In this document: positions 1,957 through 35,791 of the stretch, piece after piece
How positions within the stretch are numbered: position 1 is the stretch's first letter
Layout: each line of letters starts with the position of its first letter
Assembly (NCBI GenBank): GCA_903897605.1
Contig: CAIUCH010000037.1
Location: forward strand, 1-36,005
From: an uncultured Alphaproteobacteria bacterium
Lineage (GTDB): Bacteria; Pseudomonadota; Alphaproteobacteria; Micropepsales; Micropepsaceae
Direction of reading: 5' to 3'
Length of the DNA stretch: 36,005 nucleotides
Program-made: the position numbers and the translations under genes
Notes under the pieces: generated by a model
What the model was told of the DNA's origin: nothing
The model's input: only the letters and a program-made list of their open reading frames with translations
Database searches by the model: none

Positions 1957-3826
1957 ATTCGTGGGACGACCGAAGCAAACGCCGCGCCTCGTGCCAGGCT
2001 TCCTCGCTGCCTTCGGCAGCAAAGCGCCTGAGGGCGCGGTCGCGTTCCGGTTCTCCTTCCGCCATCGCGCGGAAATCCGCCGCGGCGCGCAGGAAACGGG
2101 CTTCTGTCTCGTCCTCCGGCATGGATTCCGGTATTGGGGCACCGGGCTTGGATGTGGCGCCCAGACGCGCCAACAATTCAGCCATTCCCAGGCGCATGAA
2201 ATGGTTCAAAACCGGCGCTTTTTCAAGGCTTGAGCCGGAGGCCGCGAGGTTTAAAAGTTCGTGGCGCAGCCTGTCAAGCGAGGGATCGCGGAAGACCAGC
2301 TCGGCCAGCTTCTCTCCTTGGGACAGGGCCAGGGCAGGTTTCTCCAAAAGCAGCCCGGCCAACTCGACTTCTTTGAGGGCCAGGGCCCCCTCCCGGGCCT
2401 GCCCGGCCTGACCGGCCCGGGCCAAAAGACTGGCCTTGACGGCGGGGGATACCGCCTCGGCGGTGCCCGGCTGGGGGCGGAACGGCCCCTGATTTTTACC
2501 CCGGAACGGCTGGCCCCGATAGGCCGGACCCCTGTCCTGGCGGGGTTGCTGGACCCGCCGCTTGAAGCTGTCGAATATTTTTTGATCGAAATCGCGGCGG
2601 TAGTAATCCGCCACCTTGGCATCGCCGATCTGGGCGGTGAGGCCGGTCAGCGTCCGCTCGAGCCCGGCGCGGCGCTCGGGGGTGGAAAAATCCCGCCCCT
2701 CGGTTTCGGCCCGCCACAGAACTTCCGAAAGCGGCAGCGCCGCATCCAGCAAGACGCGCATCGCCTGCGGCCCGCTCTTGGCGAGATAACTGTCGGGATC
2801 TTCTCCAGCCGGGAGAAAGGCAAAGCGCAGTGAATATCCCGCCTTCAGTTGCGGCAGCGCCAGATGCGCGGCACGCAGCGCCGCCTTCTGTCCGGCCGCA
2901 TCGCCATCAAAAGCAAGGATGGGTTCCGGTGCGGTCTTCCACAAAAGCTGCAGTTGATCCGAAGTCAGCGCGGTGCCCAGCGGCGCCACGGCATGGGCAA
3001 AGCCGCCGCGCACCAGCGCGATCACATCCATATAACCTTCCGCCACCAGAACGGTGCCGGCCTTGATCGCGGCAGCGCGCGCGGTGGCGAAATTGTAAAG
3101 ATTGAAGCCTTTGGAAAAGAGCGAATTCTCGCCGCTGTTGATGTATTTCGGCTTGGCGTCTTCTTCCAGCGCCCGGCCGCCAAAGGCAATGACCCGGCCC
3201 CGCCCATCGGCGATCGCGAACATCACCCGGTTGAAAAAGAAATCACGCAAGCCGCGATTTTCGTCGGCGGGACGCGCCAGGCCGGCAGCGACCATATCGT
3301 CCTGGGTGACGTTTTTCGTTTTCAAAAATTCGATCAGCGCCTGGCCGGATGCGGGCGCGTATCCCAGGCGGAATTGCTTGGCGGCGGCGCCATCCAGCCC
3401 GCGGCGCTTCAAGTAATTGCGCGCCTCCTGGCCGGCATTTTCGCGCAGCTGCGCTTCATAGAATTGCGCCGCCAGATCGACGATTTCGTAAAGCGATTTT
3501 TTCTTTTGCTCGCGCGCCTCGTCGTCGGGCGACCATTTGGGAAGTTCGACCCCAGCTTCGCCGGCGAGTTTCTCCACCGCTTCGGGAAAACTCAGGCCTT
3601 CGGTTTCCACCAGCCATTTGAAAGCATCGCCGCCCGCGCCGCAGCCGAAGCATTTATAGGCATGGCGTTCATTCTCGACCTTGAAGCTGGGGGATTTCTC
3701 GGCATGAAAGGGGCAGCAGCCCCACATCACCCGGCCCTTGCGGATCAGCTTGACGCGGCGTCCCACAAGCTGGACCAAATCGGTCCGCCGCCGGATCTCT
3801 TCCAGCAATCCTTCGCCATAGCGCAT
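1955..3826 (-). CDS. dnaG: DNA primase DnaG
   Basis: Makes the RNA primers for replication and works with the DnaB helicase. 623 residues, within the usual 580-660 range. The N-terminal CHC2 zinc finger is visible: C38-P-F-H41 and C59-F-G-C62. The TOPRIM catalytic core follows, with E263 in AEGYMD and the acidic pair in AFDGDAAG (D307, D309). The C-terminal part is the divergent helicase-interaction domain. It starts at ATG 3824-3826 (MRYGEGLLEEIRRRTDLVQL), which fits the family N-terminus, although the ribosome-binding site is weak. It lies between yqeY and rpoD on the same strand. A small hairpin CGGGA/TCCCG at 3839-3852 sits just upstream of the start. Confidence 0.97.
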   Translation of the reverse strand: MRYGEGLLEEIRRRTDLVQLVGRRVKLIRKGRVMWGCCPFHAEKSPSFKVENERHAYKCFGCGAGGDAFKWLVETEGLSFPEAVEKLAGEAGVELPKWSPDDEAREQKKKSLYEIVDLAAQFYEAQLRENAGQEARNYLKRRGLDGAAAKQFRLGYAPASGQALIEFLKTKNVTQDDMVAAGLARPADENRGLRDFFFNRVMFAIADGRGRVIAFGGRALEEDAKPKYINSGENSLFSKGFNLYNFATARAAAIKAGTVLVAEGYMDVIALVRGGFAHAVAPLGTALTSDQLQLLWKTAPEPILAFDGDAAGQKAALRAAHLALPQLKAGYSLRFAFLPAGEDPDSYLAKSGPQAMRVLLDAALPLSEVLWRAETEGRDFSTPERRAGLERTLTGLTAQIGDAKVADYYRRDFDQKIFDSFKRRVQQPRQDRGPAYRGQPFRGKNQGPFRPQPGTAEAVSPAVKASLLARAGQAGQAREGALALKEVELAGLLLEKPALALSQGEKLAELVFRDPSLDRLRHELLNLAASGSSLEKAPVLNHFMRLGMAELLARLGATSKPGAPIPESMPEDETEARFLRAAADFRAMAEGEPERDRALRRFAAEGSEEAWHEARRLLRSSHE

Positions 3827-3921
3827 GACGCCATCTTACGGGAAAACTCCCGAAAAAGATGTGCAAATTGCAGGGGATTGAAGACGAAAAAATGCCGCGC
3901 CTGTGCATGATTCGGCACCTT

Positions 3922-3941
3922 CGGCGGGGAAAGCCCCGCCG
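3922..3941 (-). terminator. Hairpin directly after the yqeY stop
   Basis: An 8-bp perfect GC stem CGGCGGGG/CCCCGCCG with a 4-nt loop, abutting the yqeY stop codon at 3942-3944. No T-run follows on the minus strand. It may be a weak or Rho-assisted terminator, or an attenuator before dnaG. Confidence 0.4.
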
Positions 3942-4421
3942 CTACGCGTCCTTCGCTACACTCGGACCCAAGCAAGCTTTCACCACGGCGCTGGCGCGGG
4001 CGAAATCCATCTGCCCGGCATAGCGTTCCTTCATTGCCGCCATCACCTTGCCCATGTCCTTGATCGAGGTGGCGCCCAGTTCCGCAATGACGGCTTTGGC
4101 TGCCTGCTGCACCCCGGCTTCGTCCATCTGGGCCGGCATGAAGGAGCGGATGATGGCGATTTCCTCGCGCTCGCCCGCCGCCAGTTCCGGGCGGTTGCCG
4201 GCGTCAAAGGCGACTGCGGATTCGTCGCGCTGTTTGATCATCTTGGCCATCAGCGACAGGATTTCGTCGTCGCCCAGAAGCTCGCGGCTGGTTTCGGTGC
4301 GCGCCGCGATGTCGCGGTCCTTCAAGGCCGCCAGCACCAGCCGCAAAGTGCCCAGACGCTTGGCGTCTTTGGCCTTCATCGCCTCTTTCATCGCGTCATT
4401 GAGCTTGAGGCGAAGCGACAT
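3942..4421 (-). CDS. GatB/YqeY domain protein
   Basis: A 159-residue protein of the YqeY family, which resembles the C-terminal tRNA-binding domain of GatB (the amidotransferase subunit that makes Gln-tRNA/Asn-tRNA). The cellular role of free-standing YqeY proteins is not settled. Family features seen: the start MSLRLKLNDAMKEAMKAKDA, the motif LGTLRLVLAALKDRDI, and the C-terminal MGKVMAAMKERY. The frame is open further upstream, but the ATG at 4419-4421 has an AAGGGC ribosome-binding site and matches the family start, so the longer form is rejected. It is divergent from carA with a 147-nt gap and precedes dnaG, a common alphaproteobacterial order. Confidence 0.93.
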   Translation of the reverse strand: MSLRLKLNDAMKEAMKAKDAKRLGTLRLVLAALKDRDIAARTETSRELLGDDEILSLMAKMIKQRDESAVAFDAGNRPELAAGEREEIAIIRSFMPAQMDEAGVQQAAKAVIAELGATSIKDMGKVMAAMKERYAGQMDFARASAVVKACLGPSVAKDA

Positions 4422-8435: not shown

Positions 8436-8807
8436 TGGCGCGATCCGCCAAGGCGGAAAGCGACGGTTTTCTCCGGCGTAATAGAAACAAAGCCGGTTGC
8501 CCGCCGGGTCGCTGAGCCAGGCTTCGCGCCACAGCCAGCCTTTGTCTTGCGGATCGCCGTCAAAGACGATGCCTTTGGCCTTCAACGCGGTGACACGCGC
8601 ATCCAGATCGTCGCATTCGAAATAGACATGCGGCCCGTGACCGACCGCTTCACGGGTCAGTTCCAGCGACAAGGTCGCATGATCGGGCGGCAGCTCGAAC
8701 CGCGCATAATGATCGTCCCGCACGATCAGGACGAATCCTAGCGTTTCATAAAATGTGATGCAGCGCCCAAGATCGTGCGCCGGCAAGGTGACTTGATTGA
8801 GCTTCAT
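8433..8807 (-). CDS. VOC-superfamily (glyoxalase/bleomycin resistance-like) protein
   Basis: A 124-residue single-domain protein with the vicinal oxygen chelate fold. The N-terminal repeat MKLNQVTLPAHDLGRCITFY is followed by ETLGFVLI, the central VYFECDDLDARVTALKAKG, and the C-terminal WLSDPAGNRLCFYY, all typical of the family. Members bind a metal and act as lyases, dioxygenases or antibiotic-binding proteins; the specific function here cannot be told. ATG at 8805-8807. It lies downstream of the DUF4893 gene on the same strand, separated by a dispersed repeat, and is convergent with the cupredoxin operon. Confidence 0.85.
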   Translation of the reverse strand: MKLNQVTLPAHDLGRCITFYETLGFVLIVRDDHYARFELPPDHATLSLELTREAVGHGPHVYFECDDLDARVTALKAKGIVFDGDPQDKGWLWREAWLSDPAGNRLCFYYAGENRRFPPWRIAP

Positions 8808-8859
8808 TCTCGCATGTTAGCACAGGGTCAAGAATGGCAAGCGGGCCAACTTGCTGCCA

Positions 8860-8943: not shown

Positions 8944-9549
8944 CTAGCGGACAAGCTCAATCGTGTCGAAATCCGATTCCTGCGTCGCGGGCTCTGGCAA
9001 GTCGATGCGCAGATGATTGTTGCCGATACCGACCAGAATGCCGACCTGGTCATCCGGACTGATCGCGCCGCCGACAGAAGCGGCGCGGCCGGAGTAGCGG
9101 TGAATGGGTTCGCCCTTGGCGCTCTGCGCACCGAGATAAACCCACATGCCTTCCTGGGGATACAGATACCCCGCCATGCGCTGGGTACCATTCTTCTCGA
9201 ACCAGATGCCGCCATTCACTTTGGAGATGTGGCAATTGAACCAGCTGAAAACATAATAACCTGTCGCGCCGCCCAGCTTGATCTGGCGGCAGCGCCAGTT
9301 TCCGTAAAGCGCCTGTTCGGGCACGGCATGCGATGCGGGCCGCAAGCTCTGTTCGATGGCGCGAAAATCGCCCGAACCGCCGCGTTGTCTGGCCTGGCTC
9401 AGGGCATCGTCGCGCGTGTCATTCAGATGGGCGAGGCGATCGATATCACGCGGCGAAATCTGGCCCTGCCAATCGGCATGGGCCGTTCCCGTCAGGACCA
9501 GCAGTGCCGACATAGCGAGTATTAACTTATGCGGCGCCTGTTTCGTCAT
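8944..9549 (-). CDS. Exported DUF4893 protein
   Basis: About 201 residues with a Sec signal peptide (LILAMSALLVLTGTAHA, cleavage before DWQG). The mature part matches the DUF4893 pattern: an N-terminal DWQGQISPRDIDRL block, then YGNWRCRQIKLG, YYVFSWFNCHIS, a GGIWFEKNGTQRMAGYLYP strand region, and a C-terminal ending in IELV. No function is known for the family. Two ATGs are possible (9553-9555 and 9547-9549); the inner one is chosen because GGAG lies seven nt before it, while it is only one or two nt from the outer. The gene overlaps the end of fabI by 23 nt, so it is translationally coupled to fatty acid synthesis genes. Confidence 0.85.
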   Translation of the reverse strand: MTKQAPHKLILAMSALLVLTGTAHADWQGQISPRDIDRLAHLNDTRDDALSQARQRGGSGDFRAIEQSLRPASHAVPEQALYGNWRCRQIKLGGATGYYVFSWFNCHISKVNGGIWFEKNGTQRMAGYLYPQEGMWVYLGAQSAKGEPIHRYSGRAASVGGAISPDDQVGILVGIGNNHLRIDLPEPATQESDFDTIELVR

Positions 9550-10375
9550 GGCCATTCTCCGGGGGCGTCCAGCCCTTCAGATCCGCTGTCGGCGGCATGC
9601 CGACCACGTTGAAGCCGGCGTCCACGAAGTGCACTTCGCCGGTGACGCCGCCCGAGAGGCTGCTAAGCAAATAGAGTGCCGCGCCGCCGACATGGTTAAG
9701 TTCGACCGAGCGCTTGAGCGGGGCATGGCTCTTGTTCCATTTGAACACCATGCGGGCATCGCCCACCGCGCTGCCGGCCAGGGTGCGCATCGGCCCGGCG
9801 GAAATCGCATTAACCCGGATTTCATCGCGGCCCAGATCGGCGGCGAGATAGCGCACCGACGCTTCCAGCGCCGCCTTGGCCACGCCCATCACATTGTAAT
9901 TGGGCATGACGCGCTGGGCGCCGAGATAGGTCAGGGTCACCATCGCGCCGCCCTTGGTCATCAGGCTGGCGGCGCGGCGCGCCACGGCGGTGAAGGAATA
10001 GCAGGAAACATCGAGGCTTTTTAGGAAATTGGCCCGCGTGGTGTCGACATAGCGGCCCTTCAATTCCTTGGCATCGGAAAAGGCGATGGCGTGGACCAGA
10101 AAATCGAGCGAGCCCCAGTCCTTCTCCAGGCGCGCGAACACCGCATCGAGATCGGAATCCTTTTCGACATCGCCGGGCAGGATGATCTTGCTGCCGATGG
10201 ATTCGGCCAAGGGCCTGAGCCGTTTTGCCTGCGCATCACCTTGATAGGTAAAAGCCAGTTCCGCGCCTTGCGACGCCAGCATCTGGGCAATGCCCCAGGC
10301 AATCGAATGATCATTGGCGACGCCCATGATCAGGCCGCGCTTGCCCGCCATCAGTCCCGTTCTGACTTCAGCCAT
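9527..10375 (-). CDS. fabI: Enoyl-[acyl-carrier-protein] reductase (NADH) FabI
   Basis: Last reductive step of each fatty acid elongation cycle. 282 residues of the short-chain dehydrogenase family. Seen: the divergent FabI nucleotide-binding segment GLIMGVANDHSIAWGIAQML, the active-site Tyr-x6-Lys in NYNVMGVAKAAL, and the substrate-loop region SAGPMRTLAGSAV. ATG 10373-10375 (MAEVRTGLMAGKRG) is chosen over the ATG 30 nt upstream because GAGG lies five nt before it and the shorter protein matches the family start. It follows fabB by 39 nt on the same strand. As the target of triclosan and diazaborines, it would be the main drug-sensitive step of this pathway if no other reductase exists. Confidence 0.96.
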   Translation of the reverse strand: MAEVRTGLMAGKRGLIMGVANDHSIAWGIAQMLASQGAELAFTYQGDAQAKRLRPLAESIGSKIILPGDVEKDSDLDAVFARLEKDWGSLDFLVHAIAFSDAKELKGRYVDTTRANFLKSLDVSCYSFTAVARRAASLMTKGGAMVTLTYLGAQRVMPNYNVMGVAKAALEASVRYLAADLGRDEIRVNAISAGPMRTLAGSAVGDARMVFKWNKSHAPLKRSVELNHVGGAALYLLSSLSGGVTGEVHFVDAGFNVVGMPPTADLKGWTPPENGHDETGAA

Positions 10376-12421: not shown

Positions 12422-12841
12422 ATGGGCAAAGCCAGCCGCGATAGCAGCAAGGCAATTGCGCGCCTGCGCGGCGTCGGCCTGCGCCCGACCCGCCAGCGGG
12501 TGGAACTGGCCAGCCTTTTGTTCAAAGGCCCGGACCGCCATGTGACGGCGGAAAACCTGCATGAGGAAGTGGCGGGCCTGGGCCTGAAAATCTCGCTGGC
12601 GACGGTCTACAACACCTTGCACCAATTCACCCATGCCGGCCTTTTGCGCCAGGTGATTGTCGATGCGGCGCGGGGCTATTTCGACACCAATACCGGCGAT
12701 CACCAGCATTTCTTCCTCGAGGCCGAAGGCACCCTGATCGACATTCCGGGCGAGGACATCCGGGTCGCCGGCGTTCCCGCTCCGCCTGCGGGCATGACAG
12801 TGGACCGGGTGGATGTGGTGGTCCGCGTCAAACGGGCCTGA
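12422..12841 (+). CDS. irr: Fur-family iron response regulator Irr
   Basis: A 139-residue DNA-binding regulator. Seen: the Fur winged-helix part GLRPTRQRVELASLL, then DRHVTAENLHEE and the recognition-helix region ISLATVYNTLHQFTHAGLLR, followed by YFDTNTGDHQHFFLE and a short dimerisation domain ending VDVVVRVKRA. The lack of C-terminal CxxC zinc sites and the LDIPG-like TLIDIPGEDI motif set it with Irr, which senses haem/iron status, rather than with Fur or PerR. The usual His-rich haem-binding triplet is H94-Q95-H96 here. No N-terminal haem regulatory Cys-Pro motif is present. An AGGA is about 10 nt before the ATG. It is divergent from fabA, with an Irr-box between them. Confidence 0.9.
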   Translation: MGKASRDSSKAIARLRGVGLRPTRQRVELASLLFKGPDRHVTAENLHEEVAGLGLKISLATVYNTLHQFTHAGLLRQVIVDAARGYFDTNTGDHQHFFLEAEGTLIDIPGEDIRVAGVPAPPAGMTVDRVDVVVRVKRA

Positions 12842-18977: not shown

Positions 18978-20420
18978 ATGCACGGTCTTTCCCTCGTCCT
19001 GCAATTTGCACTGTCCTGCGTCCTCGTCGCCGTTTGCACCTTGTCGGTCCAGTTGGCCGTGCTGGCCTGGGTGCGGGTGTTCCGCAAAAGCCCCAAACTC
19101 GCCCTGGCACTCTTGCGTGATGACGAACTGCCGCATGTGCTGATCCAGCTGCCGGTCTGCAACGAAGGCTTGCTGGCGGTCCGGGTGGCGGAAGCCGCCG
19201 CCGCGATGGATTGGCCCCGGGACCGCCTCACCATCCAGCTTTTGGACGATGGCGATAGCGATGCACACGCCGCCCTCGCCCGCGACGCCATGGCGGTGAC
19301 ACCGGAAGGCGTGAAGCTCGATATTCTCAGCCGCGGCAATCGCACCGGCTTCAAGGCCGGCAATCTTGCTTTCGGCCTCACCCATTGCGATGCGCCCTAT
19401 GTGGCCATTTTCGATGCCGACTTCGTGCCGTCGCCGGATTTTCTGCGCCGCACCGTGCCGGCGCTGGTCGCCGATCCGGGCTTGGCCTTCGTGCAGGCGC
19501 GCTGGGCCCATGCCAACCGCAACGCCAATTGGCTGACGCGGGTACAGGGCCTGCTGCTGGATTCCCATTTCGCGGTGGAACAGGAAGCGCGCTTCCGTGC
19601 CGGCTTTCCCATTTCCTTCAACGGCACAGCCGGGGTGTGGTCGCGTACCGCAATCGAGGAAGGCGGCGGCTGGACCGGCGACACCTTGACCGAGGATCTC
19701 GATCTTTCCATGCGCTGCACGATGCAAGGCTGGCGCGCCGCGATGATACCGGAGCTGACCGTGCCAGGTGAACTGCCGCAGACCGCGGCGGCCTGGCGGG
19801 CCCAGCAGGCGCGCTGGACCAAGGGTCATGCGCAATGCGCCCGCAAACTGTTGCCGCTGGTCTGGAGCAGCGAAATGCCGCTCTGGAAAAAGGCGGCGAT
19901 GACGTTGCAGATGTGCCAGTTCGCTTTTTACACGCTGGCATTTTCCAGCGCCGCGATCTCGCTCACTCTAATGTATATGGGCGTGGTCTATTATTCCGGT
20001 GTGGCGCTTTTGGGTCTGATCGTCACGCTGCTGGGCCTGGCCTCGTCCATCGGTTATCTCTATCTCGGCCAGCGCATGCTGGGCCTGCATCGCGAGCCAC
20101 GGCTCTATCGCGCGCTGCTGCTGGCGGTGGTGTTTCCTTCCGGACTTATCCTCGCCAACACCCGCGCCACCTTTGAAGCCTTTTTCAGCACCCGGATGGA
20201 TTTCAATCGTACCACCCGGGTGGGTGAGAAACATGCCGGCGGCTGGCGGGGCGTGCCGGAACTGATCGCCGGATTCCTGCTGCCGGTCTTCGCCTTCGCC
20301 GAATCCAACTGGAGCGCCGTGTTCTTTTTCTTCGCGGTATCGGGGCTGGTCTCCATCGGCTTCATGGGTGCTTCCGGCGCCGGCGAACCCGTCCGCCAGC
20401 GCATCACACCCGGCGAGTGA
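18978..20420 (+). CDS. Membrane family 2 glycosyltransferase (cellulose synthase/CslA-like)
   Basis: 480 residues. An N-terminal membrane helix (~5-30) is followed by a cytosolic GT-A domain with the processive-type motifs: LLDDGDS (D90, D91, D93), D146-A-D148 (IFDADF), TED 238-240 region (TLTEDLDLSMR) and QQARW 276-280. Four to five membrane helices follow. This arrangement is that of beta-glycan synthases such as CslA/glucomannan and cellulose-like enzymes. The donor would be a nucleotide sugar and the product a polymer or lipid-linked glycan at the inner membrane; which one cannot be told. No PilZ domain or partner subunits are nearby. The ribosome-binding site before ATG 18978 is weak. 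Confidence 0.88.
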   Translation: MHGLSLVLQFALSCVLVAVCTLSVQLAVLAWVRVFRKSPKLALALLRDDELPHVLIQLPVCNEGLLAVRVAEAAAAMDWPRDRLTIQLLDDGDSDAHAALARDAMAVTPEGVKLDILSRGNRTGFKAGNLAFGLTHCDAPYVAIFDADFVPSPDFLRRTVPALVADPGLAFVQARWAHANRNANWLTRVQGLLLDSHFAVEQEARFRAGFPISFNGTAGVWSRTAIEEGGGWTGDTLTEDLDLSMRCTMQGWRAAMIPELTVPGELPQTAAAWRAQQARWTKGHAQCARKLLPLVWSSEMPLWKKAAMTLQMCQFAFYTLAFSSAAISLTLMYMGVVYYSGVALLGLIVTLLGLASSIGYLYLGQRMLGLHREPRLYRALLLAVVFPSGLILANTRATFEAFFSTRMDFNRTTRVGEKHAGGWRGVPELIAGFLLPVFAFAESNWSAVFFFFAVSGLVSIGFMGASGAGEPVRQRITPGE

Positions 20421-21340: not shown

Positions 21341-23302
21341 TTGTTGTCCGTGAATATATACCCCCCCGAGCCCGCCGACCCCAATGCGGTTCCGCTTGCC
21401 GGCGCGACGCCGTCCAAGCCCGTGATCCCGCCACCGCGTGATGGGCTTCGCCGCAATCTGGGCTTGATGATGGGAGCGCTGGGGGGGGTGTTTGGCGACA
21501 TCGGCACCAGCCCGCTTTACGCGATGCGCCAGACGGTGCTCGCCACCACCACCGGCTTTTCCAATCACATTGCGGTGATGGGTTCGCTGTCGATGATCTT
21601 CTGGGCCCTGGTCCTGGTGGTGACGGCGAAATACGTCACCATCATCATGCGCGCCGACAATAATGGCGAAGGCGGCACCTTGGCGCTGGCGGCGCTGGCG
21701 CATCGTTCGCCGGGGATGAGCCGCAGGTTGAAATCGACCATTGGCATCGGCGCGATATTGGGCCTGGCGCTGTTCTATGGCGATGGCATGCTGACCCCGG
21801 CGATCACCGTGCTGTCGGCGGTCGAAGGCCTGGAAGTGGAAAGCCCGGCTTTCGCGCCGCTGGTGGTGCCGCTGACCTTGATTATTTTGATCGGGCTATT
21901 TGCATTCCAGAGCCGTGGCACCGCCAAGATCGGCCGCCTGTTCGGGCCGGTGATGCTGTTGTGGTTCGCCACGCTGTCGGTGTTGGGCGCTTATTCGATT
22001 CTGAAAAATCCGGCCATCCTGGCTGCGGTCAATCCGGTTTATGCGTTCGACCTGTTCATCAACGCACCTTGGATCGCCTTCGTCTCCCTGGGCGCCGTGG
22101 TTCTGGCCGTGACGGGCTGCGAAGCGCTTTACGCCGACATGGGGCATTTCGGCAAAAAGCCCATTCAATATGCCTGGTACTTCGTGGCGCTGCCGGCGCT
22201 GCTGCTGGACTATTTCGGCCAAGGCGCGGCATTGCTGCGCGATCCGCATCTGGCTGGGATCGCCTTTTTCTCCATCGTGCCGCATTGGGCCCATTTCACG
22301 ATGGTGATCCTGGCGACAATGGCTGCCGTCATCGCCAGCCAGGCCGTCATCACCGGCGTCTTTTCCATGACCCAGCAAGCGGTGCAGCTGGGTCAATTGC
22401 CGCGCATGGAGATCCGCCACACTTCGGCCACCGAATATGGCCAGATCTATGTGCCACGCATGAATATCGTGCTGGCGATCGGTGTGGTTCTGATTGTGCT
22501 GATTTTCAAGAACTCCGGCGCGCTGGCCGCGGCTTATGGCATCGCAGTGACCGGTGTGATGGTGATCGACACCTTCAATGCGTCGCTGGTGGCGCGCAAG
22601 CAATGGCATTGGGCGTTGTGGGGCGTGGTGCTGCTGTTCGGCGCGCTGGGCATCACCGATTTTCTTTTCCTGGCCGCGAATTCCCTGAAAATCCCTGAAG
22701 GCGGCTGGCTGCCGCTTCTGATCGCGGCAGCCATGTTCCTGGTGATGGACACTTGGCGGCGCGGACGGCGGGTGCACATGGAAATCGTCCGCAACGAATC
22801 CATGCCGCTGGCCTTGTTCCTGGAGCGTGCCGACAAGAGCACCCAGCGCGTGGCGGGACTGGGCGTGTTCCTGTCCTCGCGCAATGATGTGGTGCCGGGC
22901 GCCCTGTTGCACAATCTCAAGCACAACAAGGTGCTGCACGAACGGGTGGTGATCGCCAATGTGGTGGTCGAGGACACCCCGGTGGTGCCGCCGGAAAAAC
23001 GCATCGAGGTCCAGAAGCTGGGCAAGGGATTCTATAGCGTGCGGGTGCATCACGGCTTTTTCGAAACCCCGGACGTACCGCAGGCAATGGAAGATGCCCG
23101 CCGCTTCGGCCTGGCGCTGGATGTTTCCACCGCGACCTTCTTCATCGGTCGCGAGACCCTGGTGCCGGCGGAGCATTCCGAACTGAACCGATTCCGCAAC
23201 TGGCTGTATCGCACGATTGCGGGTAATGCTCTGTCACCGGCATTGTTCTACAACCTGCCCACCAACCGGGTCGTCGAGCTCGGCACCCAGATCGCGATCT
23301 GA
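21341..23302 (+). CDS. kup: Kup-family potassium uptake transporter, first copy
   Basis: A 653-residue KUP/HAK/KT potassium-proton symporter. The hallmark GGVFGDIGTSPLYAMRQ lies near residue 50, followed by MRADNNGEGGTLALAALAH, LFYGDGMLTPAITVLSAVEG and GCEALYADMGHFGKKPI, about 12 membrane helices, and a cytosolic C-terminal domain ending VVELGTQIAI. No in-frame ATG exists in front of the conserved part; TTG at 21341 or 21344, or GTG at 21350, must start it, and none has a good Shine-Dalgarno. The second copy begins two nt after its stop. Confidence 0.93.
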   Translation: MLSVNIYPPEPADPNAVPLAGATPSKPVIPPPRDGLRRNLGLMMGALGGVFGDIGTSPLYAMRQTVLATTTGFSNHIAVMGSLSMIFWALVLVVTAKYVTIIMRADNNGEGGTLALAALAHRSPGMSRRLKSTIGIGAILGLALFYGDGMLTPAITVLSAVEGLEVESPAFAPLVVPLTLIILIGLFAFQSRGTAKIGRLFGPVMLLWFATLSVLGAYSILKNPAILAAVNPVYAFDLFINAPWIAFVSLGAVVLAVTGCEALYADMGHFGKKPIQYAWYFVALPALLLDYFGQGAALLRDPHLAGIAFFSIVPHWAHFTMVILATMAAVIASQAVITGVFSMTQQAVQLGQLPRMEIRHTSATEYGQIYVPRMNIVLAIGVVLIVLIFKNSGALAAAYGIAVTGVMVIDTFNASLVARKQWHWALWGVVLLFGALGITDFLFLAANSLKIPEGGWLPLLIAAAMFLVMDTWRRGRRVHMEIVRNESMPLALFLERADKSTQRVAGLGVFLSSRNDVVPGALLHNLKHNKVLHERVVIANVVVEDTPVVPPEKRIEVQKLGKGFYSVRVHHGFFETPDVPQAMEDARRFGLALDVSTATFFIGRETLVPAEHSELNRFRNWLYRTIAGNALSPALFYNLPTNRVVELGTQIAI

Positions 23303-23304
23303 CC

Positions 23305-25182
23305 TTGGAAGCACGTCCTCCCTCTTCGCTGAAACGTGAGCTTGGTCTGACCTTGGGGGCTCTGGGCGTCGTCTTTGGCGATATCGGCACTTCGCCGCTT
23401 TACGCCATGCGCGAGACCGCGCTGGCGGCCGGCGGCCATTCGCCCAACCCCGCCTCCATCTATGGCGCGCTGTCGCTGATCTTCTGGGCACTGGTGATCG
23501 TGGTGACGGTGAAATATGTCGTCTTCATCATGCGCGCCGACAATAACGGCGAAGGCGGCGTGCTGGCGCTAGCGGCACTGGCCCACCGCGCGCCCGTCAA
23601 TCGCGCCGCCAAGACCGCTATCGGCATCGCGGCGCTGATGGGTCTGGCGCTGTTCTATGGCGACGGCATGCTGACCCCGGCGATCTCGGTGCTGTCGGCG
23701 ATGGAAGGCCTGAATGCGGGCGGCGGCGCATTTTCGCCCTGGATCCTGCCGCTGACCCTGATCATTCTGATCGGGTTATTTTTCCTGCAAAGCCGTGGCA
23801 CCGAGAAGATCGGCAAGCTGTTCGGACCGGTGATGGTGCTGTGGTTCATCATCATCGCCGTGCTGGGGGCGATCTCGATCCTGAAGCAGCCGCAGATTCT
23901 GCGCGCCGCCGATCCCCGCTATGGCCTGGCGCTGTTCGGCAGCGAACCTTGGACCGCGTTCGTCGCCCTGGGTTCGGTGGTTCTGGCGGTCACCGGCTGC
24001 GAAGCGCTCTATGCCGATATGGGCCATTTCGGCCGGCGTGCCATCCGCTGGGCCTGGCTTTATTTCGCTTTCCCCGCACTGGTCCTGAATTATTTCGGTC
24101 AGGGCGCGCTGCTGCTGTCTCACCCCGGCGATGTGTCGTTGCTGTTCTATGCCCTGGTGCCGCCTTGGGCGCATTATCCCATGGTGGCGCTGTCGGCGCT
24201 TGCCACCATCATCGCCTCGCAGGCGGTGATTTCCGGCGTCTTCTCCATCACCCGCCAGGCCGTGCAACTGGGCCAGTTGCCGCGGATGGAAATCCGCCAC
24301 ACCTCGGCAACCGAACGCGGACAGATTTACGTGCCCCGCATCAATGTCATGTTGTGCGTGGGCGTGGTGCTGATCGTACTGATCTTCAAATCCTCCGATG
24401 CGCTGGCGGCGGCTTACGGTATCGCGGTGACCGGCGTGATGGTGATCTCGACCGTGCTGGTGGGACTGGTGGCGATCCATCGCTGGCACTGGTCCAAGCC
24501 CGCCGTATTCGCCGTCTTTGGTGGATTGGGCCTGATCGATCTCGCCTTCCTGACCTCCAACGCCCTCAAGATCACCCAAGGCGGCTGGCTGCCATTGGCG
24601 GTGGCGGCAGCCGTATTCGTGGTGATGGATACCTGGCGGGTTGGTCGCCGCGTCCATTTGGAGAAAGTGCGCGAAGGATCATTGGCGCTCGATCTGTTCC
24701 TGGACCGGGCCGACAAGATGACCCAGCGCGTCGCCGGCACCGCCATCTTCATGAGCACTCGCACAGATGTGGTGCCCGGCGCGCTGCTGCACAGCCTCAA
24801 GCATTACAAGGTGCTGCATGAGCGCATCGTGCTGGCCACGGTGACGGCCGCCGATACGCCATTCGTGCCGGCGTCGCGCCGCATCGCGGTGGAAAAGCTG
24901 GGCAAGGGATTTTTCACCGCCCGCTTCGTCTATGGCTTTTTCGAAAGCCCCAATATTCCTGAGGCGCTGGCGGCGGCGCGCGCCCACGGCCTGGCGCTGG
25001 AGATGGATCAATCCACTTTCTTCCTGGGGCATGAAACCCTGGTGCCGGGCGATCACCCCAGCCTCAGCCGCTGGCGGGTCGCACTGTACATGTGGCTGGC
25101 GTCGAACGCGCTGGCGCCCGGGCGATTCTATCATCTGCCGCCAGGGCGCGTCGTTGAGTTGGGTACCCAAGTCACGATCTGA
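23305..25182 (+). CDS. kup: Kup-family potassium uptake transporter, second copy
   Basis: 625 residues, alignable along its whole length with the first copy: GVVFGDIGTSPLYAMRE, IMRADNNGEGGVLALAALAH, LFYGDGMLTPAISVLSAMEG, GCEALYADMGHFGRRAIRW, and the C-terminus VVELGTQVTI. It begins at TTG 23305, two nt after the stop of copy one, with no separate Shine-Dalgarno, so its translation is probably coupled. It has a shorter N-terminal tail than copy one. Tandem kup genes are known in rhizobia and relatives; whether the two differ in affinity or pH range cannot be read here. Confidence 0.94.
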   Translation: MEARPPSSLKRELGLTLGALGVVFGDIGTSPLYAMRETALAAGGHSPNPASIYGALSLIFWALVIVVTVKYVVFIMRADNNGEGGVLALAALAHRAPVNRAAKTAIGIAALMGLALFYGDGMLTPAISVLSAMEGLNAGGGAFSPWILPLTLIILIGLFFLQSRGTEKIGKLFGPVMVLWFIIIAVLGAISILKQPQILRAADPRYGLALFGSEPWTAFVALGSVVLAVTGCEALYADMGHFGRRAIRWAWLYFAFPALVLNYFGQGALLLSHPGDVSLLFYALVPPWAHYPMVALSALATIIASQAVISGVFSITRQAVQLGQLPRMEIRHTSATERGQIYVPRINVMLCVGVVLIVLIFKSSDALAAAYGIAVTGVMVISTVLVGLVAIHRWHWSKPAVFAVFGGLGLIDLAFLTSNALKITQGGWLPLAVAAAVFVVMDTWRVGRRVHLEKVREGSLALDLFLDRADKMTQRVAGTAIFMSTRTDVVPGALLHSLKHYKVLHERIVLATVTAADTPFVPASRRIAVEKLGKGFFTARFVYGFFESPNIPEALAAARAHGLALEMDQSTFFLGHETLVPGDHPSLSRWRVALYMWLASNALAPGRFYHLPPGRVVELGTQVTI

Positions 25183-28955: not shown

Positions 28956-30005
28956 TTAATGGCGCCGATGCACCAAGGCGTGGATAAAGCCCAGCTTGGC
29001 GATGGAGCCCGGCGCCAGAATAAACGGATAGAGATCGGACTGTCCCATTGACCAGTTGAGGCTGTTGACCGTGAAGGTGATCGGCAGCCAAGCCTCGATC
29101 AGCTGCTGCATATCAGCCGCGTTATAAGGATCAAAATCAATCCGCGTGGTCTTCCGGCGGGTGACGACGGAAAGATCGAAAGCGCGCGCCGTCTCCAGCG
29201 TATCCACGATGTGCAGATAATGCGCCCAGCTTTCGGCGAAATCCTCCCAGGGATGGGTGGTGGCATAGACGCTGAGAAAATTCTTCCGCCAGTCGGGCGG
29301 CGCGCCTTGCGCATAATACGCCTTCAAGGCCGCCGCATAGTCGGCACGCTCGTCTCCGAACAGGGCACGAAAAGACTTCAGCGTCTCCGGATCGGACGCC
29401 ACCAGCCGGTCCCAGAAATAATGTCCGCTCTCGTGACGGAAATGCCCCAGCAGGGTGCGATAGGGCTCTCCCAATGCTTCGCGCGCCTGCTCGCGCACCA
29501 CATCGTCCGCTTCCTTCAACGCCAAGGTGATGAGGCCGTTATTGTGCCCCGTCATCACATGGGCGGCGTGCGGCGTGGGCGGTTCGGCAAGAAAGTCGAA
29601 GGCCAATCCATGCTCGGGATCGTCGATCCGGTTCGCCAAGGGTAGATGCAGAAGGATCAGGCTGTAAAAAAGTCGATGCTTGGCGTCCTCCATCCTGGAC
29701 CAGAGAATGTCGTTGCCGGGCACCGAAAGGTCGGGGATCAGGTGGTTGTGCCGGCAAGCGGTGCAATAGATCTCAGACTGGTTCGCCGGCAGCATCCAGT
29801 TGCAGACGCCATAGCGCGCATTGTCACAGAATTTGTAGGCCCTTTGCGGCGTCGCCAGCACGCTCCAGCCGCCATCCGGTTTGGGGTCCAGCGACGAGAG
29901 GGTGCCCAGATCGGGCAGATAACCCAGGGTGCGCCCGCAATGCTCGCACCGCACATTCTCGAAATAGAGAAGCTGGCCGCAGGCCTGGCAGGCGAACAAT
30001 TTCAT
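28956..30005 (-). CDS. Zinc-ribbon metallopeptidase family protein
   Basis: 349 residues. An N-terminal zinc ribbon (C6-x2-C9 and C20-x2-C23) is followed by a second Cys set (C60, C68, C81, C84) and then a putative gluzincin peptidase domain with H191-E-S-G-H195 (FRHESGHYFW) and a downstream acidic helix EDFAESWAHYLH that would give the third metal ligand. This is the layout of the zinc-binding metallopeptidase family (zinc-ribbon_6 plus Peptidase_Mx). No signal peptide, so cytosolic. Substrate unknown. ATG 30003-30005. It is divergent from a ZIP transporter with a 116-nt shared region. Confidence 0.88.
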   Translation of the reverse strand: MKLFACQACGQLLYFENVRCEHCGRTLGYLPDLGTLSSLDPKPDGGWSVLATPQRAYKFCDNARYGVCNWMLPANQSEIYCTACRHNHLIPDLSVPGNDILWSRMEDAKHRLFYSLILLHLPLANRIDDPEHGLAFDFLAEPPTPHAAHVMTGHNNGLITLALKEADDVVREQAREALGEPYRTLLGHFRHESGHYFWDRLVASDPETLKSFRALFGDERADYAAALKAYYAQGAPPDWRKNFLSVYATTHPWEDFAESWAHYLHIVDTLETARAFDLSVVTRRKTTRIDFDPYNAADMQQLIEAWLPITFTVNSLNWSMGQSDLYPFILAPGSIAKLGFIHALVHRRH

Positions 30006-30121: not shown

Positions 30122-30841
30122 ATGACGGCGTTTTTGGTGATGACGATCGCGTTGGGCGCCGCTGCCGCGACCATGCTGGGCGGGCTGGCGGCGCTGGGCT
30201 TGCGTGAGCGTCTGCATCTGGTTTTGGGATTCAGCGCCGGCGCGGTGATCGCGGTCGCTTTCTTCGATCTGTTGCCAGAGGCTTTGAGCCTGGCCGCGCA
30301 TCCGCCACGCACAGTTATCGCCATCGCCGCGCTGGGCTTTTTTCTGTATCTGCTGTTCGACCGCCTGGTCAGCCTGCACGGCGCACGGCAAGGAACCAGC
30401 ACCAGTCTCTGGCGCGGCCGCATCGGCGCCGGCAGTTTCTCGGCCCATAGCCTGCTCGACGGTTTCGCCATCGGCATCTCCTTTCAGGCCGGACAGGCGG
30501 TCGGCTTCGTCGTCGCCGCCGCCGTGCTGGTGCATGATTTTTCCGATGGTTTGAACACCGTCAATGTGGTGGTGAAGAATGGCGGCCAACGCCGCAGCGC
30601 GATGAATTGGCTGGTGGTGGATGCCCTGGCACCGCTGGCAGGCGCCGGCATAAGCCTTTTGGTGGCGCCGCCGCGCGACATGCTGGCGCTGTTGCTGGCG
30701 GGTTTCTCCGGTTTCTTCCTGTATATCGGCGCCAGCGATCTGTTGCCGGAAAGCCAGCGCGCATTCCCGCGCCTCTGGACAACAATTGCCACACTTATGG
30801 GCGCGGGGTTGCTTTATTTGGCGACACAATTCGCCTTCTAG
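30122..30841 (+). CDS. ZIP-family metal transporter
   Basis: 239 residues, about eight membrane helices. The ZIP metal-binding motifs in helices 4 and 5 are present: HSLLDGFAIGISF and HDFSDGLNTVNVVV, plus an acidic SDLLPESQ near the end and FDLLPEAL in helix 2. It would move Zn2+ or another divalent metal across the inner membrane into the cytosol. The family also includes GufA-like and Fe/Mn transporters, so metal identity is open. It starts at ATG 30122 with AAGG upstream. Its pairing with a zinc-dependent peptidase suggests a link to zinc supply. Confidence 0.9.
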   Translation: MTAFLVMTIALGAAAATMLGGLAALGLRERLHLVLGFSAGAVIAVAFFDLLPEALSLAAHPPRTVIAIAALGFFLYLLFDRLVSLHGARQGTSTSLWRGRIGAGSFSAHSLLDGFAIGISFQAGQAVGFVVAAAVLVHDFSDGLNTVNVVVKNGGQRRSAMNWLVVDALAPLAGAGISLLVAPPRDMLALLLAGFSGFFLYIGASDLLPESQRAFPRLWTTIATLMGAGLLYLATQFAF

Positions 30842-30882: not shown

Positions 30883-32469
30883 TCACGGGAAGTACTGATA
30901 AATCCAAGTCTCGCTGAGCGTCTTGTCGCTGAGCTTGAGATAGCAGCGCAGATCGATCGGCCCTTTGCCATCGACGGTAATGTCGAACAGACAACGCCAG
31001 CGGTCGGTGCCCACCACCTTGATGACATAGACGCCTTCCGCCTTGCCGTTGGAGACGTTGATCACTGGCGTCAGGTCATAACGCTGCTGCAACTCGCTGA
31101 GCCCGCCGCCCTGCCAATCGATGGCGAATTTGCGCTTGTTGGCGGGCCAGGGAATCTGTCCCGGCACGCCGCCGCGGCCGATGCGGGTGGCGACCGCGCG
31201 GGCCAGGCTTTTGGGATAGTTGGGTTCGCTGTCTTGCCAATAGAGGCGGTAGTCGAAACTGAGACCGTCGCCGCTCTTGATCGGATCGTCCGGCCGCCAA
31301 TAGACCACGATATTGTCGTGGGTCTCGTCGTCGGTGGGAATTTCGACCAGCTGCACCGCGCCCTTGCCCCAATTGCCCTTGGGTTCGACCCAGATGCCCG
31401 GCCGCCTGTCATAGAACGCGCCGTCATCCTGGTAATTCTCGAAATCGCGATCCCGCTGCATCAACCCGAAGCCTTTGGGATTGTTGTCCACGAAAGAGTT
31501 GGTCTGCAGGGTCGGCGGATCGATCAAGGGCCGCCAGATGCGTTCGCCCTTGCCGTTCCAGATCGATAGCCCGTCATTGTCGTGAATTTCGGGACGCCAA
31601 TCCGCGGCCTTGGTGCGCTCATTCTCGCCGTACCAGTACATGCTGGTGAGCGGGGCGATTCCCAACCGCGAAATATCGGCACGAAAGAAGATATCGCAAT
31701 GAACATTCATCACCACCGTGCCGCCTTGCGCTTGCGGGTTCTTCACGCAATCGAATTTATAGGCACCGGTGACGCTGGGTCCTTCCAGAAGGGCATGGAT
31801 CGTCGCCAGCGGTCCATTTTCCGCCAGCCAGAATTGCGAGAAGCGGGGAAATTCTTCTGCCGATTACAGGGCGGTGTTGACGGCGATGCCGCGCGCCGAG
31901 GCGCCATACTGGCCGTCCTGTCCAGAGGAACGAAAATAGCTCGCCCCCTGGAAGGCCAGCCAGTCGACCTGGGAGGACTGGCTTTCCATCACCCGGAAGC
32001 CCGCGAACCCCAATCTGGCGAGCGGTTTGGGGTCCAGGCTCGAGGCGCCATAGTCGAAATATTCCGGTGCATAAATCACTTCCCGGGCGATCTGCCTGCC
32101 GGAAGGCCCGTCCTGGACGGCGAATATGCTGACCGGGTCGGCGGAGTATTTGTTGAGGTGAAAAAAGGCAATGGGGTCGGCGCCCGCGACGCCCCGCCAC
32201 AGCGCATCCTCCTGGCGGAAACGGATTTTCTGCACCTTGTCGAAATCGACGCCCTGGATGATCGCCTTGGCCGGCGGCTCCTGGCGCTGGTAGGGAACCG
32301 TTGCCAGCTTTTTGGCCTGCTGGCGCAAGGCTTCGAACGAAAAGGCATGGGGCGGCCCGAAATGCAGCCCGGCTGGCGGGTTTTTTGACGCGGCGAAGCC
32401 TGGCAAGGACGGCAACAGGCCGGCGGCGGCAAAGCCCGCGAGCAGGAAACGTCGGTCGGGGGCGATCAT
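30883..32469 (-). pseudogene. opgG: opgG/opgD-like glucan biosynthesis gene cut by an in-frame TAA
   Basis: OpgG/MdoG-family periplasmic protein for making osmoregulated periplasmic glucans. The first part (codons 1-201) has a signal peptide (RRFLLAGFAAAGLL, possibly Tat) and the start of the beta-sandwich domain up to GASARGIAVNTAL. Codon 202 (31864-31866) is TAA. In the same frame the sequence then continues with SAEEFPRFSQFWLAENGPLA and GPSVTGAYKFD, and on through LGIAPLTSMYWYGEN and NNPKGFGLMQRDRDFENYQD to the natural end WIYQYFP. The whole is 529 codons, normal for the family, so one nonsense codon is the only defect. GGAG lies six nt before ATG 32467-32469. Either a real nonsense mutation or a base-call error. 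The 3' part could start at GTG 31744-31746 but would lack a signal peptide. Confidence 0.9.
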
Positions 32470-32634
32470 GCGAAGCTCCGGATGGCAGGGGCAATAAACC
32501 GGGCAAAGATGGAAAAGTTGGGGCGAAAATCCCCGCCTTCCGCGTCTGATTCAGGCCGCGAATTCACCCCGCCCGATCCATGATTTCGCCGTAATGTTCA
32601 CCCATCTTGGAAGCCTCCCGAGAACCCAAAGAGC

Positions 32635-32844
32635 ATGACTTTGATGGACCGCGACAGTCTTATTTTCCAGGGCGATTTTGTTCCCGCCAGCATGCCGTCG
32701 CGCCGTCCCGCCCCCATGCTGGCGCAGCCGATCGTGCCCTGGACGTTGACAAGGCTGGCGGCCGCGGGGATCGATTGGCTGATGGCTGAAACACTTCCGA
32801 CCCTGCCCGCTCCGATAAGCACGACCGCCAAGCGCCGTGTCTGA
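32635..32844 (+). CDS. Small ORF overlapping the opgH start; possible displaced OpgH N-terminus
   Basis: 69 residues beginning MTLMDRDSLIFQGDFVPASM, Pro/Ala-rich in the middle, ending STTAKRRV. Codon use is mostly G/C at the third position, like real genes here. It lies in the 367-nt gap between the divergent opgG and opgH and overlaps the opgH GTG by eight nt. OpgH proteins usually carry a Pro-rich cytosolic N-terminal tail before the first membrane helix, which opgH lacks here. So this may be that tail, split off by a frameshift near 32837, or a separate coupled small gene. No recognised domain. Confidence 0.4.
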   Translation: MTLMDRDSLIFQGDFVPASMPSRRPAPMLAQPIVPWTLTRLAAAGIDWLMAETLPTLPAPISTTAKRRV

Positions 32845-34699
32845 CATCGCTGCGCGGCGATGGCTTTTTCTGTTCCTGGTTATCGTTTCCACCACTGCCG
32901 CGGTGGTGAAGCTTTACCAGGTGCTGCGGATTGACGGGATCGACTTTCTCGAAACCCTTTTTCTCATCTTGTTCGGAATCTTGTTCGGCTGGATCACCAT
33001 CTCTTTCTGGATGGCGGTGTTCGGCGCCTTTGCCCGCCTGACCGGCGCAAAGCTGTTGCCGCTCACCGAAAGTGTCGCGCCTTCTTCCTCGCGCACCGCC
33101 ATCCTGATGCCGATCTATAACGAGGATGTGGCGTGGCAGACGCTGCGCGCCAGCCTGGAACCGGAAGCGCGGGTGTTTTACCGCCATCGCCACCGCAACA
33201 TCGGCCGCAAGAGCGGCAACATTCAGGATTTCTGCGAGAATTGGGGATCGCATTACGATTATATGGTCGTGCTGGATGCCGACAGCCTGATGAGCGGCGA
33301 GACCTTGACTGCCCTGGTCCAGCTGATGGACGCCAATCCCCGCGCCGCGCTGATTCAGGCACCCGCGACTTTGGTCGGACGCAGCACCTTGTTCGCGCGC
33401 ATCCAGCAATTCGGTTCCAGCGCCTATGGCCCCACCTACAATGCGGGGCTCGCCTGGCTGCAAGGCGCGCAAGGCAATTACTGGGGACACAACGCCATCA
33501 TCCGGGTGCGCGCCTTCCAGCAGCATGGCGGTTTGCCAAAACTTCCCGGCAAGCCACCTTTTGGCGGCGAGATCATGAGCCATGATTTCGTCGAGGCCGC
33601 CTTCCTGCAGCGCGCGGGCTGGGAAGTCTGGATGGCGCCCGATCTTACCAGCAGTTATGAGGAACCGCCGCCCACCATCTATGACCATCTCAAACGCGAC
33701 CGCCGCTGGGCGCAGGGCAATCTGCAACATTCGCGCGTTCTTCTGGCGCAGGGGCTGAAATTGCCATCGCGGCTGCATCTGGCGATGGGCATCATGTCGT
33801 ATATGGCCTCACCGCTCTGGCTGCTGTTGCTGGTGGTGTCGGCGCTGGAAATGTTCGTGCCCAGGGGCATCGCGCCTTTCGCCTATGCCGGCCGCCATCC
33901 GGAACTGGCCTTGTCGGTGTCGCAGGCCACGCCCTTGCTGCAGTTGGTCACCGCCACCCTGGTGCTGCTTTACGCGCCGAAACTGCTGGCGCTGATGGTG
34001 CTTCTGGCCCAGCCGGATGCGGTGAAGAATCACGGCGGCACCTGGAACATTCTGCGTTCGGTGGTGCTGGAAAGCATCTTCGCCACCTTGTTCGCGCCGG
34101 TGGTGATGCTGGTGCATAGCTGGTTCATCTTCAACATCGTGGTGGGTCGCGCCACTGGCTGGGGCACGCAGACCCGCGATGACAGGGCTTTGCCCTTCTG
34201 GTTGGTCTTCCGCGAATATTGGCCGCATACCCTGATCGGAATGCTGGCGGCGCTTGCGCTCTATCGTTACGCGCCAAACAGCTTGGGCTGGTTCGTGCCG
34301 CTGCTGCTGGGACTGATCCTGACCATCCCGCTGGTCCAGATCAGTTCCAGCCTGAAGCTGGGCGCGGCGTTGGCGCACGACGATTTGTTTCTGGTGCCCA
34401 GTGAAACGCAGACCATTGCGGTGCTGAAACGCGCCCATCAACTGCTGGAACGGCGCGAATCTGCGGAGCGGACAATGGATTACCGCCGGCTGGTGTTGAG
34501 CGACCCGGCGGTGATGGCATTGCATCTGCAATTGCTGCAGGAAGCGCCGCCCATGGTGGAGTTGCCGCCTGCGCAGCTTGCGGCGTTGGCCGATGCCGCG
34601 CGGCGGCAGGACACGCAAGGGTTCACGCGGCAGGACTGGGTGGCGCTGCTATCCGATGCCGAGAGCCTGGAAGCCGCGGGCACGCCTCCCGCCGCCTGA
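32837..34699 (+). CDS. opgH: OpgH-like glucans biosynthesis glucosyltransferase with an internal deletion
   Basis: Inner-membrane GT2 enzyme that makes the beta-glucan backbone of osmoregulated periplasmic glucans from UDP-glucose. 620 residues from GTG 32837. Membrane helices at ~9-30 and 38-66, then the GT domain, then about five or six helices. Present: VLDADSLMSGE (D147-A-D149), GNYWGHNAIIRVRAF, SHDFVEAAFLQRAGWEVW and LKRDRRWAQGNLQHSR. Missing: the ~40 residues between NEDV (95-98) and AWQTLRASLEPEARVFYR that in other OpgH proteins include the LSD(S/T) motif with the first catalytic-domain Asp. The two flanks join cleanly in frame near 33128. Activity is doubtful. It is divergent from opgG, whereas these genes usually form an operon. 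Confidence 0.88.
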   Translation: MSDIAARRWLFLFLVIVSTTAAVVKLYQVLRIDGIDFLETLFLILFGILFGWITISFWMAVFGAFARLTGAKLLPLTESVAPSSSRTAILMPIYNEDVAWQTLRASLEPEARVFYRHRHRNIGRKSGNIQDFCENWGSHYDYMVVLDADSLMSGETLTALVQLMDANPRAALIQAPATLVGRSTLFARIQQFGSSAYGPTYNAGLAWLQGAQGNYWGHNAIIRVRAFQQHGGLPKLPGKPPFGGEIMSHDFVEAAFLQRAGWEVWMAPDLTSSYEEPPPTIYDHLKRDRRWAQGNLQHSRVLLAQGLKLPSRLHLAMGIMSYMASPLWLLLLVVSALEMFVPRGIAPFAYAGRHPELALSVSQATPLLQLVTATLVLLYAPKLLALMVLLAQPDAVKNHGGTWNILRSVVLESIFATLFAPVVMLVHSWFIFNIVVGRATGWGTQTRDDRALPFWLVFREYWPHTLIGMLAALALYRYAPNSLGWFVPLLLGLILTIPLVQISSSLKLGAALAHDDLFLVPSETQTIAVLKRAHQLLERRESAERTMDYRRLVLSDPAVMALHLQLLQEAPPMVELPPAQLAALADAARRQDTQGFTRQDWVALLSDAESLEAAGTPPAA

Positions 34700-34707: not shown

Positions 34708-35568
34708 TCACGCCTTGCGGCCCTCCTTGTCCAGGGCAGCAAATTCCTGGTCGCTGAGCACAATCTCGGCGGCCGCGACATTCTCTTCCAGATGTTTGAC
34801 CTTGCCGGTTCCGGGAATGGGCAGCGTCACCGGGCTGCGCTTCAACACCCAGGCCAGCGCGATCTGCGCCGGTGTGGCTTGGTGTTTCTTGGCGATGCCG
34901 TCCAGCAACGACCCACGCCGGGCGAGATCACCCGCCGCCAGCGGATACCAGGGAATAAAACCGATCCCGTGCTTCTGGCAATAATCGAGCACATCCTCGC
35001 TTCCGCGCGACACCAGATTATATTGGTTCTGCACCGTGACGACGGGAAACACTTTGCGAGCGGCTTCGATTTCCTCCACCGAGACGTTGCTCAATCCCGC
35101 CTGCGCGATCACGCCGGTGTCCAGCAATGACTTGATGGCGGCGAATTGCTCGCCGCGCGGCACATCGGGATCGATGCGATGCAATTGCCAAAGCGCAATG
35201 GTTTCCACCTTGAGTCGGTCACGGCTCCGCTTCGCCGCGCCGATCAGATAGTCGGGATCTCCCTCGGGCGCCCACCGGTTGGGTCCGGAGCGGCTCAGCC
35301 CCCCCTTGGTCGCAATCAAAAGCCCGTCATAGGGATAAAGCGCCTCGCAGATCAGGTTTTCGGAAATGTCGGGACCATAGGCATCGGCGGTGTCGATGAA
35401 ATCCACACCCAGTTCGGGCACCCGCCTCAGGGTCGCCATGGCTTGCGGCTTGTCCTTGGGCGGACCCCAGACGCCGTCACCGATGGTTCGCATGGCGCCG
35501 AAGCCCAGGCGATGAACCTTCGCCTTGCCGCCGATGGTGAAGACGCCGGACTTTGCTGCATTGATCAT
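34708..35568 (-). CDS. Aldo/keto reductase
   Basis: A 286-residue (beta/alpha)8 NADPH-dependent oxidoreductase. The catalytic tetrad regions are seen: [10 protein letters not shown] (Asp and Tyr), LLIATKGG (Lys) and ALWQLHRID (His). The C-terminal [20 protein letters not shown] matches the cofactor-binding end of the family. Substrate cannot be told. The start ATG 35566-35568 ([20 protein letters not shown]) has GAGG seven nt upstream; a longer open frame upstream reads through a terminator and is rejected. Convergent with opgH. Confidence 0.92.
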
Positions 35569-35633
35569 GGGAAGGCCTCGGAGTTGAGAGCATCTGAAAT
35601 AGGCCGCGTACCGCCTTAGTTCCAGTGCGTGAA

Positions 35634-35671
35634 GGATAAAAGAAAACGGCCCCGCCAGAGCGAGGCCGTTT
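35634..35671 (-). terminator. Intrinsic terminator between the PQQ dehydrogenase and aldo/keto reductase genes
   Basis: On the minus strand an 8-bp stem AAACGGCC/GGCCGTTT with a 12-nt loop is followed by TTTTCTTTTAT. It should end the transcript of the upstream dehydrogenase gene. Confidence 0.85.
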
Positions 35672-35695
35672 CCAAGATATTGCGGACAGCTCTCC

Positions 35696-35791
35696 GGCCG
35701 CTCGCTTTGGCTGTCCATACGCTGTTGCTATGGACCGTTCGTCGCTTTCGCAGGTCCACCGGACCCGCTCACGCGGCTTCGCCGCGCCGCT
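35696..35791 (-). repeat. Dispersed REP-like repeat, copy B
   Basis: Read on the minus strand it begins AGCGGCG two nt after the dehydrogenase stop, has the core CGCGTGAGC, GGTCC-GGT-GGACC, TGCGAAAGC, and ends AAGCGAGCGGCC, as in copy A (8860-8942). An extra inner palindrome GGTCCATAGC/GCGTATGGAC-like segment makes it ~13 nt longer. Confidence 0.8.

Follow-up and report, generated by a model that had tools for sequence, protein, structure and literature searches.

Does a genome whose opgH lacks a piece of the catalytic domain still make osmoregulated periplasmic glucans (OPGs), or has the pathway been lost? This question is raised by the opgH (mdoH) gene at 32837..34699 (+ strand) of the window, a stretch of 36,005 nucleotides that represents one whole contig of a 2.79-Mb, 60-contig draft genome from an uncultured alphaproteobacterium (G000, 95.8% complete). 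OpgH is a membrane GT2 enzyme, which is taken to use UDP-glucose for the glucan backbone, and the periplasmic glucanase of the opgG type is taken to process this OPG backbone. We consider it probable that OPG synthesis was lost recently by two independent lesions, one in each of these genes, in a genus in which the pathway is patchy.

The missing segment of OpgH

The opgH gene of the window has a GTG start and 620 codons and lacks 39 codons of the GT-A part, while the rest is open and well conserved. The first-pass annotation had noted that about 40 residues, the first GT2 Asp among them, are cleanly lost in frame, with conserved flanks and intact later motifs. The comparison with the nearest relatives (L031, L032 and L033, 79% amino acid identity to the window protein) bears this out: 39 codons (117 bp) with ILSD inside are absent in frame between codons 98 and 99, and apart from this deletion the gene has no frameshift or stop. 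At the junction the window reads AAC GAG GAT GTG GCG TGG (33119-33136), which joins N95 E96 D97 V98 to A99 W100, and the flanks match the relatives codon by codon. The DxD, the later Asp (HD) and the RW of the QxxRW-like motif are all retained, as in all 82 rows of the wider alignment described below. The best NCBIfam model for the window protein is NF003958 (E 1e-209, 698.3 bits vs a cut-off of 419), and NF003962 is also above its cut-off (560.8 bits vs 328); the other seven MdoH models stay below theirs for the window protein and for the intact L031 protein alike. All nine models match the intact protein in a single stretch each, and in eight of the nine the match to the window protein is split into two.

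Alignment by BLAST likewise breaks the window gene into two pieces, the first stopping at 33130 and the second starting at 33122, so that they overlap by 9 bases. A short direct repeat at the junction in intact genes had been suggested as a check, and it is present: the breakpoints in L031, L032 and L033 coincide with GA(G/A)GATGTGG and GAGGAAGT(A/G)G, which match at 8 of 10 bases and are spaced exactly 117 bp in all three. The window retains one copy, GAGGATGTGG at 33122..33131 (+ strand), which marks the site of the absent 117 bp, the exact breakpoint within the repeat being ambiguous. In the same genes, pairs matching at 8 of 10 bases or better account for 0.12-0.14% of the pairs with spacings from 60 to 180, and at a spacing of 117 there are 6, 2 and 5 such pairs among 1958 positions in the three relatives. 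The opgH deletion is thus most likely a short-repeat (slipped-strand) event, in which 117 bp between two imperfect 10-bp repeats would have been removed.

The segment is strictly retained elsewhere. In a first alignment of 32 OpgH homologues it is kept in 31 of the 31 that span the region, the remaining one (L034) being a contig-edge fragment that does not reach it. A wider alignment of 82 proteins comprises the window protein, the window once more (L065), a fragment from G072 (L064) and 79 informative homologues, of which 28 come from the genus and 51 from a class sample. The genus set derives from 30 opgH loci found among 69 congeneric genomes; the class sample covers 289 genomes, 52 of them with an opgH match, and 51 stretches were aligned, leaving aside the weak matches in G315 (9.8e-11) and G289 (9.1e-8) as well as G000, G024 and G030, which were already in the genus set. 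The DxD and RW patterns served to select the reading frames, and every locus yielded one. A segment of at least 37 residues, together with the Asp at the LSD position, is found in 79 of 79 informative homologues. The three rows without it are the window, its duplicate and the G072 fragment, which starts downstream of the segment region. Within the genus the deletion occurs in none of the 28 other informative copies, and the deleted stretch contains 10 columns that are invariant among 18 relatives. Close relatives with a short opgH were looked for, and their number among the 79 informative homologues is zero, which rules out the short gene as a genus-wide or family-wide variant.

What the deletion means for the protein was judged from AlphaFold models built on alignments derived from the loci (19 rows for the window OpgH, 18 for the intact L031 protein). 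In the intact model the region consists of strand 87-93, helix 98-112, strand 118-124 and helix 129-145. The deleted residues correspond to L031 99-137. They comprise helix 98-112 almost to its full length, then strand 118-124 followed by the LSD, and the beginning of helix 129-145. In the numbering of the GT-A fold these elements are helix 1, strand 2 (with ILSD) and a portion of helix 2. Prediction for the window protein accordingly lacks strand 118-124, and model confidence falls around the junction, with pLDDT values of 42-59 in the blocks covering residues 91-130. The mean pLDDT is 64.3 for the window model vs 74.3 for the intact one, and Foldseek against the PDB at E<=0.001 returned 13 matches vs 177, with BcsA heading both lists; because the window model is the poorer of the two, this comparison serves as supporting evidence only. 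As modelled, the GT-A core of the window OpgH is incomplete.

The position of the lost Asp can be placed by way of BcsA. A phmmer search of the PDB with the window OpgH gave no match, but the profile of its relatives aligned with BcsA (5ej1, 4hg6, 4p00), the only PDB sequence-profile matches at E<=0.01. Asp125 of the L031 OpgH, the Asp of LSD, aligns with the first Asp of CDDGG in BcsA (residue 179, counted along the 4hg6 chain as printed), where the alignment is moderately reliable. This first GT2 Asp is present in all 79 informative homologues and missing from the window protein. In the CesA8 structure, the Asp of the DDG motif contacts uracil (PMC10592267). Since the lost residue falls on this uracil-contacting position, the UDP-binding part of the active site appears incomplete, as the first-pass annotation had supposed. 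The structural elements that the 117-bp deletion would have taken away, this Asp included, belong to the GT-A domain, and loss of such a segment suggests that the window OpgH is inactive.

The interrupted opgG-type gene and the state of the contig

Divergent from opgH, across an intergenic region at 32470..32836, lies an MdoG-family gene at 30886..32469 (- strand), with 528 codon positions including an in-frame stop by which it is interrupted once. We refer to it as opgG-type, a label that covers the OpgG and OpgD types together. The stop is a TAA after codon 201 (31864..31866, - strand); aligned relatives have an amino acid codon at its position. PF04349 matches strongly in both halves of the gene (profile positions 1-156 and 160-478). 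The MdoG family is present in 29 of the 69 congeneric genomes, and none of the 28 others has an internal stop. The original observation on opgH did not mention this stop. With it beside the opgH deletion, an oddity of one gene becomes the loss of a pathway.

A separate nonsense mutation would have cut the opgG-type protein to 201 residues and would have left the larger part without the N-terminal export signal. In E. coli work, an opgG knockout was unable to make OPG, and D388 is given as the general acid of E. coli OpgD (PMC10514313). Judged from its position, the counterpart of D388 should be missing from the N-terminal fragment.

The flanks of the gene pair are intact on both sides, with a ZIP metal transporter gene at 30122..30841 (+ strand, PF02535) and an aldo/keto reductase (AKR) gene at 34708..35718 (- strand, PF00248), whose homology to relatives begins at about codon 50. 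Over nearly all of its extent the contig runs collinear with a single contig of G061, the genome from which L031 comes. We compared 29 gene rows with G061 and dropped two (orf12335 and 26500, wrong frames with dN/dS >1). Among the 27 remaining genes the window has two broken ones, opgG and opgH, and 25 unbroken ones; the window genes other than these two were chosen as open frames, so that the absence of stops is partly by construction. In the reverse comparison of G061 frames with the window, stops of the window fall in opgG, in upstream extensions of dnaG, GT2, kup1 and rlm, and further in frames that lie next to known genes or on the strand opposite to them. The stretches left by the dropped rows hold a DUF4893 gene (8947-9555, - strand) and a Fur gene (12422-12841, + strand), both intact in the window, as is a 127-codon frame at 8436-8816 (- strand) with a counterpart of similar size in G061.

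Further observations on the contig concern other genes. Two tandem Kup-type potassium transporter genes (21341-25182, + strand) are 63-66% identical in cross matches, and both are conserved in G061 and G094. A 480-residue GT2 gene at 18978-20420 (+ strand) resembles cellulose-synthase models (TIGR03030, below cut-off) and is 92% conserved in G061. A zinc-binding metallopeptidase gene at 28956-30005 (- strand; PF15887 and PF10005) is intact in the window and split into three frames in G061, a reciprocal disruption.

The most serious alternative is that the deletion and the stop are assembly errors, or come from a minority strain picked by the assembler, the typical organism being intact. The genome is a 60-contig draft, and opgH and the opgG-type gene end 1.3 and 5.1 kb from the contig end. 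Moreover, disrupted frames also occur in G061 over this stretch (2 of 27 genes: peptidase Mx in three frames, and an AMP-binding gene split over two frames, with two stops), so that lesions or errors are no rarity in draft genomes of this kind. Against this stand two lesions of different type in both genes of one pathway, while the 25 other compared genes are clean, including the AKR gene, which is nearer to the contig end. The probability that two lesions placed at random by length both hit the opgG/opgH pair is about 0.013 (28 genes). The repeat at the deletion, 10 bp long and imperfect, is also too short to collapse in a usual k-mer assembly. We regard the artefact as unlikely and infer that both lesions are real in the organism.

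Selection, timing and a possible role of the short protein

Compared with G061, dN/dS is 0.130 for opgG and 0.149 for opgH, within a range of 0.058 to 0.334 for the other genes. These ratios point to past purifying selection on both genes, and since their divergence is still strongly constrained, the loss would be recent. Rate tests with two outgroups detected no significant excess on the window branch (chi-square 0.30-3.13 for opgH and 0.0-1.88 for opgG). At columns invariant in the outgroups, opgH has 11 changes in the window vs 11-13 in its sisters, and opgG 8 vs 6-7. In the absence of significant relaxation the decay itself is not yet visible, which is expected if the lesions are recent; judged from these substitutions, constraint on the two genes was probably lost late, if at all.

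Such figures would also fit a protein that is still used. Beside its enzymatic work, E. coli OpgH has a non-catalytic role, and the short OpgH could have been kept without a nucleotide pocket as a scaffold, for signalling or for division control. In favour of this are the strong past selection without significant visible relaxation, an open frame with a deletion that is exactly in frame, and later motifs as intact as those of a functioning protein. If it were true, the lineage would possess a membrane scaffold or an envelope-stress signal without periplasmic glucans. However, a long N-terminal region is absent, the first long helix starting at residue 4 of the window model, the GT-A part of this model loses confidence, and the partner opgG-type gene is broken as well. 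A DxD mutant of Caulobacter OpgH, though stably made, did not support growth (PMC11389396). We consider a retained pseudoenzyme very improbable. That the short OpgH is still a working glucosyltransferase, with UDP-glucose placed by other residues, is hardly credible despite the retained DxD, later Asp and RW, because no informative homologue has the short form and the missing piece holds the 10 invariant columns and a core strand.

The pathway in the genus and in known systems

Recent loss of OPG synthesis, the reading that we prefer, leads to the question of what else the genome could use. It has a single opgH match; neither a second opgH as compensation nor a GH94 supersandwich domain, as the mark of a Cgs/NdvB cyclic-glucan synthase backup, was found in G000, and with 95.8% completeness a second synthase could lie in the missing part. 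In the genus, opgH is present in 30 of 69 genomes and in 21 of the 48 with a completeness of 90% or more. All 29 genomes with an opgG-type gene have opgH, and the 30th opgH genome, G072, contributes a fragment at a contig edge. The GH94 supersandwich domain matches in 33 of the 69 genomes, and 29 have a two-domain Cgs-like frame, scored by hand where a single open frame holds two GH94 matches at a distance of about 1.5 kb; G031, in which the Cgs frame is interrupted by TAG, was scored positive, and the single-domain GH94 frames of G026, G076, G020 and G086 were not. A complementary distribution of opgH and Cgs was rejected by the cross-table, with both in 10 genomes, opgH only in 20, Cgs only in 19 and neither in 20. 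Some of these absences may be gaps, since 21 of the 69 genomes miss the limits of at least 90% completeness and at most 5% contamination. It was further observed that opgGH and cyclic-glucan synthase are both patchy in the genus, so that OPG-free members may be common.

The history of opgH in the genus was traced on a tree of dnaG, one gene that covers 62 of the 69 genomes (three had no match, and the short matches of G031, G072, G078 and G081 were dropped). On this tree opgH requires 14 Fitch changes with absence as the root state, or 20 losses under a loss-only model, and the pattern would fit repeated loss as well as repeated gain. One locus is more telling. The order AKR-opgH-opgG-ZIP is common to the window, L031-L033, L035 and L036, the last two being the copies of G024 and G009 as judged by identical match statistics. 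In G094 (L163, G094:C7:24000-36000) the AKR gene (2566-3420) lies directly beside the ZIP gene (3500-4153) without opgG and opgH, while its sister G009 has both. In G094 a permissive search for remnants of opgH gave nothing better than E 1.9, and a search for opgG at E 1e-3 was negative. G094 groups with G009 (support 0.99) and with G024 (0.998); the node joining the clade of G000 to that of G009, G024 and G094 has a support of 0.507. The nested position of G094 and the shared gene order favour loss for this genome. It was the informative one among eight in which the AKR gene was searched (seven opgH-less or sister genomes, plus G009): the opgH-less G093, G014 and G017 have the gene in another neighbourhood and are uninformative on the locus, in G080 and G084 all AKR matches were weak, and G092 had no match.

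Loss of the OPG pathway would have been tolerated or even favoured in the window lineage. A catalytically dead OpgH cannot support growth of Caulobacter, whereas opgH is non-essential in E. coli (PMC11389396), so that viability without OPGs depends on the lineage. Taken as a single event, the case looks like a clear and well-documented but ordinary gene decay, and in the literature that was searched we found no report of an opgH/opgG loss of this kind, which other wording or papers beyond it could hide. Its value lies in the genus, where three states of the pathway can be seen: it may be intact, newly disrupted by two lesions, or missing from the very same locus. Its members could be used to learn under which conditions OPGs can be dispensed with and what takes their place.

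Among known systems, the window protein is closest to OpgH/MdoH of family GT2, represented by NF003958 and eight sister models, which it resembles in its family match, in the DxD, later Asp and RW, and in the divergent opgG-type neighbour; it differs in lacking the 39 residues that hold helix 1, strand 2 and the Asp of LSD. Its neighbour resembles the OpgG/OpgD beta-1,2-glucanases of the MdoG family (PF04349), which both halves match, and differs in being split by an in-frame stop, which one genome shows among the 29 in the genus that carry the gene. Cellulose synthase BcsA (4p00, 5ej1, 4hg6) is the best fold match of the intact OpgH model, but shares only 17% identity with OpgH over the fold alignment with 4p00, and its product differs from that of OpgH.
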